Positions 24,353 to 27,218 of a stretch of DNA of 55,774 nucleotides are shown piece after piece. The stretch covers positions 1-55,774 of the forward strand of contig JAJYJK010000011.1 in assembly GCA_021789555.1 (NCBI GenBank). The letters are read 5' to 3'. Made by a program: the position numbers and the translations under genes. How positions within the stretch are numbered: the first letter of the stretch is position 1; each line of letters begins with the position of its first letter. This stretch comes from Nitrospirota bacterium. Its GTDB lineage: Bacteria; Nitrospirota; Thermodesulfovibrionia; Thermodesulfovibrionales; JdFR-88. A model generated the notes under the pieces. The model was not told the DNA's origin. It ran no database searches and saw only the letters and a list, made by a program, of their open reading frames with translations.

Positions 24353-24483
24353 GAAACAGCTCCTCCATGTATTTATATGAAAAATTTTTACGCTCTACCT
24401 AATTTTCCCATAAAAAAAACTTTTTTCAAGGGCCTTGCAGAATTTTAATACCCGCCTGCCCGTGGCGCAAAGCGGGGCAAATG

Positions 24484-24492
24484 TGTTATAAA
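24484..24492 (+). promoter_or_regulatory. Extended -10 promoter of the ychF gene
   Basis: TG-T-TATAAA (24484-24492). The ATG at 24502 is 9 nt further on and has no Shine-Dalgarno, so the mRNA would begin about 3 nt before the start codon. Confidence 0.45.
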
Positions 24493-24501
24493 TCCAGTTC
24501 G

Positions 24502-25596
24502 ATGAAAATCGCTATAACCGGGTTCTCCAATTCCGGTAAAACCACCATATTCAATGCCATTACGGGGCAGCGGCTTGAGACCGCCGTCTATCCGTCCGTA
24601 GGGGGAGAGCCCCATCTGGCGGTGGTGGGTGTGCCGGACGAACGGGTGGACAGGCTCTCCGCCATATTCAAGCCGAAAAAGACCACCTATGCGACCGTGG
24701 ATTATATCGATTACATCGGCCTTACGAGGGGGGACCAGAAGCAGAACGCGAAGGTCCACGCGCTCATAAAGGACGCCGACGCCCTTCTGCTGGTAGTGAG
24801 GGTTTTTGAGGACCCCGCCGTGATGCACCCTCTTGGGGGCGCCGATCCGCTCCGGGACCTCCGGTCCCTCGAGGCCGAGCTTGTCCTGGGCGACTTTTTG
24901 CTGGTTGAAAAGAGGCTCGAAGGCATCGAGGAGTCCATAAAAAAAGGGAGGAAGGAAAAGGTAAGCGAAGCGGAGCGGACAGTCCTGCTAAAATGCCGTG
25001 ACTGTCTCGAAGGCGAGCGCCCGCTGAGGGAACTGCCCCTGGACCCCGAAGAACTTAAGGCGATAAGGCACCTGGAATTCCTTTCCATAAAGCCGGAAGT
25101 CGTCCTTTTCAACGTGGCGGAAGACGAGGCGGGCGGCGCAAAAACAGAGGCCCTCATCCAGGCCGCAAGCGGCATCCTGCGGGAAAGGACCGCCGTCTTC
25201 GCGATGTCCGGCAAGATAGAGATGGAGCTTGCCCAGCTCGCCCCGGAGGAGCAGAAGGCCTTCCTCGAAGACCTCAAGATAGAAGAGCCCGCCCTGAACA
25301 GGCTTATTCGCATCTCCTACGGTCTGCTGGACCTGATGAGCTTCTTCACGGCCGGCGAAGACGAGGTCAAGGCATGGACGATAAAAAAAGACACCCCCGC
25401 CCCAAGGGCGGCCGGCAAGATACACTCCGACATAGAGAAGGGTTTCATCCGCGCCGAGGTCATCGCCTATGATGATTTCATCGTCAAATCCGGGGGCTCC
25501 ATGGCCGAGGCAAGAAAACTCGGCCTCCTGCGCCTGGAGGGCAGGGATTACCTGGTCAGGGACGGCGACATCATAAATTTCAGGTTCAATATTTAA
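24502..25596 (+). CDS. ychF: YchF/OLA1-family P-loop GTPase/ATPase
   Basis: 364 aa from ATG 24502 (MKIAITGFSNSGKT), which puts the P-loop at residues 7-14 as in the family; the seven-codon upstream extension has no support. Switch region YPSVGGEP with DYIDYIGL, a helical-hairpin insert (about 110-190), and the C-terminal DUF933/TGS-like domain (RAAGKIHSDIEKGFIRAEVI). YchF proteins bind the ribosome and prefer ATP. The specificity segment reads LFNVAEDE, not NKxD, consistent with that. The protein is less canonical than E. coli YchF (P-loop GFSNSGKT instead of GLPNVGKS), so it may be a paralogue. Confidence 0.87.
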   Translation: MKIAITGFSNSGKTTIFNAITGQRLETAVYPSVGGEPHLAVVGVPDERVDRLSAIFKPKKTTYATVDYIDYIGLTRGDQKQNAKVHALIKDADALLLVVRVFEDPAVMHPLGGADPLRDLRSLEAELVLGDFLLVEKRLEGIEESIKKGRKEKVSEAERTVLLKCRDCLEGERPLRELPLDPEELKAIRHLEFLSIKPEVVLFNVAEDEAGGAKTEALIQAASGILRERTAVFAMSGKIEMELAQLAPEEQKAFLEDLKIEEPALNRLIRISYGLLDLMSFFTAGEDEVKAWTIKKDTPAPRAAGKIHSDIEKGFIRAEVIAYDDFIVKSGGSMAEARKLGLLRLEGRDYLVRDGDIINFRFNI

Positions 25597-25704
25597 TCAA
25601 AATGTACGGGGCTTGCGCCCCATGCCCCGCTAACGCCAACAGAGCAAAGAGCAAAATTTCAGGCACCAACCCCCGCCGCCGTGCGTATCTACGGAGGTTT
25701 CGGA

Positions 25705-25841
25705 GGAAGGAAGCGAGGATGGCATGTGAGCGGATTTTTTGCCGCAGACGCCGCCCGGACGGCGGCGGCAGGCAAAAGCCTCGGAGCCGAACAGAATGTT
25801 CGGCGAGAATGATGCGAGCCGTGCCATCCCCGCTTCCTTCC
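25705..25841. other. 137-nt nested palindromic element (candidate structured RNA or MITE-like repeat)
   Basis: The gap 25597-25925 has no credible gene. It holds a 20-nt arm at 25705-25724 that pairs 19/20 with 25822-25841. Inside are two further perfect hairpins: CGCCGCC/GGCGGCG (25749-25755 with 25761-25767) and GCCGAACA-GAA-TGTTCGGC (25786-25804). The result is a long closing stem with a multi-hairpin interior. A separate 13-bp perfect inverted repeat joins 25802-25814 to 25898-25910, just before the next gene's Shine-Dalgarno, so two alternative folds exist. It could be a non-autonomous mobile element, a terminator or a regulatory RNA; nothing in the window decides. Confidence 0.65.
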
Positions 25842-25855
25842 CGGCACTTCTATGG

Positions 25856-25883
25856 TTGAAATTGTCCCTAATGGTGATAAGAT
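25856..25883 (+). promoter_or_regulatory. Predicted promoter of the phosphoribosyltransferase-hydrolase gene
   Basis: TTGAAA (25856-25861), 16-bp spacer, TAAGAT (25878-25883). It lies between the two arms of a 13-bp inverted repeat (25802-25814, 25898-25910), so an RNA-level or operator role of the arms is possible. Confidence 0.4.
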
Positions 25884-25925
25884 TTTATTAAAGGCAACAT
25901 CATTCTCGCCAGAGAGGAGGCCCGG

Positions 25926-27218
25926 ATGTTCAGGGACAGAAAAGATGCGGGCGTAAAGCTGGCCGCGGCGCTGAGAAAATACAGGGGGGAGGACCTGCTT
26001 GTGCTTGCCCTGCCAAGGGGGGGCGTGGTGCTGGGCCGCGAGATAGCGGAGTTTCTGGACGCGCCGCTCGACGTCCTCATCGTACGCAAACTGGGTGTCC
26101 CCTGGCAGCCGGAGTTGGCCATGGGCGCCATCTCGGAGACCGGCGCAGTCATCCTGAACGAAAACATAATCTCCGCATACAACATCTCCCATGGGCAGGT
26201 CGAAACGGCGATTTCCGCGCAAAAAAAGGAGATAGAAAGAAGGCTCCGGACTTACCGGAAGGGCATGGAGATCATGCCGATGAAAGGCAAAACGGTCATC
26301 GTGGTCGACGACGGGGTAGCAACCGGCGCCACAATGAAAGCGGCGCTCTCCGCCATAAAAAAAGAGGCCCCCGCAAGGCTCGTCGCCGCCGTGCCGGTTG
26401 CGCCCCCCGAGACGCGCGATGATCTGATACAGTTGGCCGATGACTTCGTCTGCCTCGAAATCCACCCGTTTTTCACCGCCATAGGCAGCTACTATTATGA
26501 TTTCGAGCAGGTCTCGGATGAAGAGGTCACGGGCATCCTGGAGGAGACCTCCAGGACGGCCGGCGACCCCGTTGGCTCCGATATCCTGATCCAGGCGGAC
26601 TCCGTCTCCCTGGAGGGCGACCTGCAAATCCCGCGCGGGGCGCGGGGTATAGTGGTCTTCGCCCACGGCAGCGGAAGCAGCCGCCACAGCCCCAGGAATA
26701 AATTCGTCGCGCATGCGCTCAGGAGCGAGGGATTAGGAACGCTCCTGTTCGACCTGCTCACCGCCCGGGAAGACACCGTCTATGAAAGGCGCTTCGATAT
26801 CGGACTTCTTACCAGGCGCCTCATAGCGGCGACAAGATGGCTCAGGCAAAATCCCGCCTCGGAGGCCCTGGCCATAGGCTATTTCGGCTCCAGCACGGGG
26901 GCTGCCGCGGCCCTGCGGGCCGCGGCAGCTATGGGGACCGACATCGGGGCCGTCGTCTCCCGCGGCGGTCGCCCGGACCTGGCCGGGGGAGATGCGCTTT
27001 CGAAAATCCAGTCCCCTACGCTGCTCATCGTCGGCGAGCTTGACCGGCTCGTCATCGAGCTCAACCGGCGGGCGCTTGAATCCATCAGGACGGAAAAGAA
27101 AATGGAGATCGTCCCCGGCGCAACCCACCTCTTCGAGGAACCCGGCACACTCGAGGAAGTGGCCCGCCTCGCAATCGGATGGTTTGCCAGATGCCTTCAG
27201 CCCGCGGCGAAAAGATAA
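25926..27218 (+). CDS. Fused phosphoribosyltransferase - alpha/beta hydrolase
   Basis: 430 aa. Residues 1-~210 are a type I PRTase: LALPRGGVVLGREIAE, VIVVDDGVATGATMKAA (PRPP-binding loop at 124-140). Residues ~220-430 are an alpha/beta hydrolase of dienelactone-hydrolase type: VVFAHGSGSSRHSPRN, nucleophile Ser323 in GYFGSSTG, Asp373 in VGELDRLV, His401 in GATHLF. The fusion is known from bacterial genomes but its substrate is not. The GAGGAGG at 25914 gives a clear start. It follows the nested palindrome and is followed by a half copy of repeat A (27225-27243). Domain calls firm; physiological role unknown. Confidence 0.92.
   Translation: MFRDRKDAGVKLAAALRKYRGEDLLVLALPRGGVVLGREIAEFLDAPLDVLIVRKLGVPWQPELAMGAISETGAVILNENIISAYNISHGQVETAISAQKKEIERRLRTYRKGMEIMPMKGKTVIVVDDGVATGATMKAALSAIKKEAPARLVAAVPVAPPETRDDLIQLADDFVCLEIHPFFTAIGSYYYDFEQVSDEEVTGILEETSRTAGDPVGSDILIQADSVSLEGDLQIPRGARGIVVFAHGSGSSRHSPRNKFVAHALRSEGLGTLLFDLLTAREDTVYERRFDIGLLTRRLIAATRWLRQNPASEALAIGYFGSSTGAAAALRAAAAMGTDIGAVVSRGGRPDLAGGDALSKIQSPTLLIVGELDRLVIELNRRALESIRTEKKMEIVPGATHLFEEPGTLEEVARLAIGWFARCLQPAAKR

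Follow-up and report, generated by a model that had tools for sequence, protein, structure and literature searches.

The window, that is the whole 55,774-nt stretch of Nitrospirota DNA analyzed here, contains a nested palindrome at positions 25705–25841, located between the gene for the YchF GTPase (24481–25596, plus strand) and the gene for a phosphoribosyltransferase (PRTase) with an alpha/beta hydrolase (25926–27218, plus strand). Its outermost part is a closing stem, P1, in which 25705–25724 pairs with 25822–25841 at 19 of 20 positions; in a BLAST comparison the two arms are inverted copies with 95% identity. The stem encloses two hairpins. Hairpin 2 (25737–25777) has the base TTTTGCC/GGCAAAA (25737–25743/25771–25777) and an inner 7-bp stem (25749–25755/25761–25767), and hairpin 1 (25780–25807) has the base CTCG/CGAG, a 3-nt bulge and a variable, covarying upper stem, here at 25787–25793/25797–25803. 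We refer to the strand carrying CATTCTCG, which is the minus strand of the window, as the canonical strand. On this strand lie the junction motif CCGCTC (25728–25733; GAGCGG on the plus strand), recognized as conserved from alignments, and the conserved core GGCTCGCATCATTCTCG (25804–25820), which reads CGCTCATTCTCG in most of the class. A previous sequence-only reading of this DNA had described the 19/20-bp closing stem and two perfect inner hairpins, of 7 bp (the inner stem of hairpin 2) and 8 bp (25786–25793/25797–25804), and all of these are present. Its estimate that the pairing is far above chance also holds: region 25700–25846 folds with −83.2 kcal/mol as RNA (z = −6.0) and −50.4 as DNA (z = −7.0), and in either case none of 200 shuffles folded as well. 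The repeat codes for no protein. In agreement with the same reading, which recognized no known RNA family, the element has no match to any family of Rfam 15 at the gathering score, and in the copies of six related loci only tRNAs matched Rfam at E ≤ 1. Downstream of the palindrome are the promoter of the PRTase gene, TTGAAA-16-TAAGAT (25856–25883, plus strand, with TTGAAA at 25856–25861 and TAAGAT at 25878–25883), which is not part of the repeat, and an isolated, exact 13-nt match to the core motif, CATCATTCTCGCC (25898–25910, plus strand). This 13-mer occurs exactly twice in the window, where 0.01 occurrences are expected; 25802–25814 and 25898–25910 are exact complements, making up the perfect 13-bp inverted repeat reported previously.

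Region 25705–25841 is one minus-strand copy of a dispersed repeat of approximately 140 bp. It had been proposed that many BLASTN matches would mark a mobile repeat, and this was the outcome: positions 25690–25925 have 23 matches in their own genome. Likeness to the other copies stops at 25841–25843, and therefore the second 13-mer lies outside the repeat. A covariance model, R1, was built from the 11 full copies found in this genome, which also contains fragments; the window copy, itself one of the 11, is matched at 25699–25845 with an E-value of 9.7e-29. R1 also detects about 16 copies in one congener and one to three in each of several further genera from the family. The distribution was followed further with an exact-pattern scan, covering one genome per species in 84,980 species, and with a second model, R2, built from 113 copies. 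The scan returned at least 113 stretches; among the matches listed (80), all come from Nitrospirota-type records, of which many bear the name Nitrospirae or Thermodesulfovibrionales and two the name Nitrospinota. R2 has matches in 104 of 200 sampled genomes, representing 67 of the 108 genera of the class, and of the 44 positives in a draw of 246 genomes from the phylum only one falls outside the class. Judging by the names of the carrying records, the host class is that of Thermodesulfovibrionales-type Nitrospirota. Copy number reaches 101 and 112 in single genomes of relatives, whereas no copies were found in the viral contigs, phages and plasmids searched. A search of the open literature returned no earlier description of this repeat in Nitrospirota.

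The 11 full copies share a common plan which, on the minus strand of the window, runs from the closing stem through GGCTCGCATCATTCTCG, hairpin 1, CTCCGAGG, TTTTGCC-hairpin 2-GGCAAAA and CCGCTC back to the closing stem. The junction motifs that join the stem and the two hairpins (CGCTCATTCTCG, CTCCGAGG and CCGCTC) are nearly invariant, whereas the stem sequences vary between copies with pairing retained. Across 98 copies drawn from many genomes, pairing holds in 93.4% of cells and 37 of 41 pairs show double changes. The covariation score reaches 0.531, compared with 0.140 ± 0.005 for shuffled alignments and no more than 0.087 when partners are slid. Because the alignments had been fitted to the model, the absolute figures favor the structure, but the slid controls come nowhere near them. 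Restricting the analysis to one genome, G086, gives a score of 0.480, versus 0.128 after shuffling. Strong covariation alongside the behavior of a mobile repeat was unexpected. The covariation foreseen for an RNA switch was thus found across copies, but none of it is tied to orthologous PRTase genes, and covariation in copies preceding genes does not on its own imply a riboswitch.

The interior of hairpin 2 exists in several unrelated sequence versions across the family. Two copies that are otherwise 99% identical (L098 and L172) differ in that the interior has been swapped for a palindrome of the form CCCCCCTTaa..AAGGGGGG; this second palindrome fills the interior in L094, L107 and L119 as well as in L172. 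Two copies from different contigs of one genome (L009 and L011; G000:C17 and C1) have in common the unusual interior GTCGAGCGACGGACAAAGAACATTTATCATATACATGTCCGGAC, probably reflecting recent copying within the genome. A 56-bp derivative (L035, G000:C108:51790-51845) consists of the closing stem and a short loop alone and is apparently the product of an internal deletion. In L063 (1471-1680), L053, L049 and other copies from genomes G001, G002 and G004, the palindrome is embedded in a bigger repeat whose ends form inverted repeats of the type GGTAGTGTCTCAGTTTG...CAAACTGAGACACTACC, as though another MITE had taken it up.

Copies are largely restricted to intergenic gaps. In G086, 90 of 91 lie outside predicted genes, typically 0–20 nt past a stop codon and inside operons. 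Relative to the canonical strand, the neighboring genes in this genome are co-directional in 54 cases, opposed in 18, convergent in nine and divergent in nine, with one copy missing a neighbor; the 3:1 preference for one orientation (54 versus 18) is about four standard deviations from equality. The corresponding split in the many-genome set, for which a simple ORF caller was used and some genomes of which overlap with the other set, is 50, 23, 20 and 15. The copies sit between housekeeping-type genes, and the occupied gaps include dnaK-dnaJ and trpE-trpG, as named by eye from the translations. Orientation relative to replication was considered in the single-contig genome G075, where the GC skew is too weak to place the origin and terminus.

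Comparison of orthologous gaps shows turnover of the MITE-like kind. Between relatives, a given gap may contain the same copy or a different one, may be empty, or may carry a copy that points the other way, and a heuristic screen of flank pairs, in which pairs are listed both ways and absence is overestimated since copies in loci outside the two alignments are not counted, gave 40 same, 60 absent and eight opposite. In one comparison (L387 versus L189) the stop and start codons overlap as ATGA where the gap is empty, whereas the full gap holds the element; further empty gaps were also seen. In another (L355 versus L111) flanks that are 90–96% identical enclose another palindrome or none. Flanks with 96% identity may also surround elements with only 78% (L098 versus L386), and one orthologous gap has its copy in opposite orientations in the two relatives, with an old left arm still there (L171 versus L361). 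In the closest pair (L355:1497 versus L111) the empty gap differs by more than the element and may represent a deletion. Insertion into pre-existing hairpins was considered as a source of the locus-specific arms and rejected, as the empty gaps inspected lack such inverted repeats. Some retained orthologous copies, on the other hand, are more conserved than the adjoining genes (94–99% versus 86–92% identity), which hints at a function in place.

These observations bear on the strongest of the alternatives, namely that the element acts in cis in operon mRNA, setting processing, stability or partial termination between cistrons. It would account for the preferred position between co-directional genes, 0–20 nt past the stop codon and 54:18 in the forward orientation, for the slow evolution of some orthologous copies and for the strong covariation; in addition, hairpin 1 and the short run of U residues after it look like a weak terminator. 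However, a quarter of the co-directional copies are reversed, orthologous operon gaps are found with the copy absent, swapped or inverted, and the distribution of mismatches is the opposite of that expected from selection for pairing in mRNA. For the latter comparison, non-Watson-Crick cells flanked by good pairs were scored on the canonical strand. The stems in G086 contain 107 A-C and 24 G-U mismatches, counts that are not independent events since the copies are related. The ratio is 59:15 in forward-transcribed copies, where the A-C mismatches would be in the mRNA strand itself, and 27:6 in reverse-transcribed ones; the multi-genome set gave 52:16 and 22:6. An A-C mismatch on the canonical strand corresponds to G-T (G-U) on the other, and thus it is the plus strand of the window that tolerates wobble, whatever the direction of transcription. 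This indifference argues against selection on operon mRNA and for a folded single strand of DNA, or else for an independent transcript, though no conserved promoter adjoins the copies. The inner closing stem contributes most of the asymmetry; one of its arms is sequence-conserved as well, and the asymmetry partly reflects this one-arm conservation. It is suggestive of single-stranded DNA folding rather than mRNA structure, without amounting to proof. Taken together, we consider a primary role in operon mRNA unlikely.

The reading that we prefer, with a probability of roughly two in three, is that 25705–25841 belongs to a family of mobile DNA elements that are non-autonomous and MITE/ERIC-like. 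The repeat is multi-copy, class-wide and intergenic, its structure is maintained by paired changes, it undergoes turnover, and it is not linked to the PRTase gene. It is short and non-coding, with inverted-repeat ends, and is present or absent at orthologous sites. Of the two possibilities left by the sequence-only reading, mobile palindrome of the MITE type and regulatory RNA, it is the former that the many copies and the presence/absence, replacement and inversion at orthologous sites support. No fixed-length target-site duplication exceeded the shuffled controls with our method, in which boundaries are imprecise, and no related autonomous copy with its transposase was identified in the sampled loci. 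Mechanistically, the folded single strand, corresponding to the plus strand of the window, would be recognized and moved by an enzyme acting in trans. Insertions would survive where they are least harmful, in short intergenic gaps, where the copies would be passively transcribed and may secondarily modulate operon mRNA. More tentatively, the family could represent a new kind of mobile DNA, defined by a branched single-strand fold rather than by sequence, in which the arms change pairwise at every locus, the junction is common to the class and a putative enzyme reads one folded strand. The family itself is a class-wide, high-copy, MITE/ERIC-like nested palindrome, and probably one not described before. 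Occupying up to more than 100 intergenic gaps per genome across the class, with unusually strong covariation between copies, it offers ready markers for genome comparison, and its strand asymmetry makes the nature of the selected molecule, single-stranded DNA versus RNA, a testable question.

Several known systems share some of these properties. REP/REPIN sequences, palindromes located outside genes, are believed to travel as folded single strands, and in integron attC sites the single-strand fold is conserved above sequence, with one strand active. The conserved motifs of our repeat, unlike attC, lack GTTRRRY-type boxes, and no cassette arrangement was seen. It also differs from REP/REPIN in its much larger unit and in having no linkage to RAYT. 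Movement by a RAYT (HUH Y1) transposase, as for REP/REPIN, would agree with the extragenic palindromes and the asymmetry of single-strand folding, and RAYT-type genes are common in the class, in which Y1 transposases are found in 131 of 200 genomes. Nevertheless, we reject it as very unlikely: none of 50 Y1/RAYT loci, 20 of them chosen as RAYT-type, has a copy nearby, copy-rich genomes (the genome of the window, G014 and G069) have no confident Y1 gene, and the element far exceeds REP in size. The enterobacterial ERIC sequences, or intergenic repeat units, are outlined in published accounts as imperfect palindromes of about 130 bp, intergenic and MITE-like, present in tens to hundreds of copies and reported from the 3′ ends of genes (PMC10969869; PMC2759123). 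On the basis of these outlines, our repeat is likewise an intergenic MITE-like palindrome of similar size and copy range, but differs in its branched fold, invariant junction motifs, locus-specific covarying arms and confinement to one class of another phylum. Two further kinds of non-autonomous palindrome are comparable to our repeat: the Correia elements, which can invert, and the Chunjie MITEs, described from within an operon and carrying terminal and direct repeats that are conserved (PMC10969869). Unlike in Chunjie, no duplication was detected at the imprecise boundaries of our repeat, and the arms vary between copies.

Transcription of the wobble-tolerant strand into independent small RNAs would also fit the asymmetry, since this strand folds with tolerance of G-U pairs and is lower in energy in nearly all copies of the window's own genome. 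Such transcripts are nonetheless hardly probable, because examination of boundary composition showed no conserved base or promoter adjoining the copies, gaps to the neighboring genes are often shorter than 20 nt, and Rfam has no match.

The regulatory RNA of the sequence-only reading would be a riboswitch-like control of the PRTase-hydrolase gene that alternates between two folds. It rests on the exact complementarity, beyond chance, of the two 13-mers, but is rejected as next to impossible: covariance model searches found no element upstream of any of the orthologous PRTase genes examined across the family's genomes, copies elsewhere stand before unrelated genes, and a promoter kept in nearer relatives separates the two 13-mers. 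The promoter, as TTGAAA...TAAGAT/TAGCAT or a close variant, is kept before the PRTase orthologs in G001, G002, G005, G006 and G008, and the gene order around the PRTase gene is identical in a congener. Within the window this promoter follows the element and is positioned between the two 13-mers, and thus a transcript starting from the promoter cannot contain both. The alternative fold claimed for the locus is not supported, its partner at 25898–25910 being outside the repeat and no feature of the family, and the 13-bp competing arm is a fact of sequence only: the core motif recurs exactly in the leader of the PRTase gene and is absent from orthologous leaders. In G002, the orthologous gap between ychF and the PRTase gene (L088, near 1580-1630) holds a different hairpin, GGGTGCGGCT...AGCCGCACCC, suggesting that this gap accepts various palindromes.
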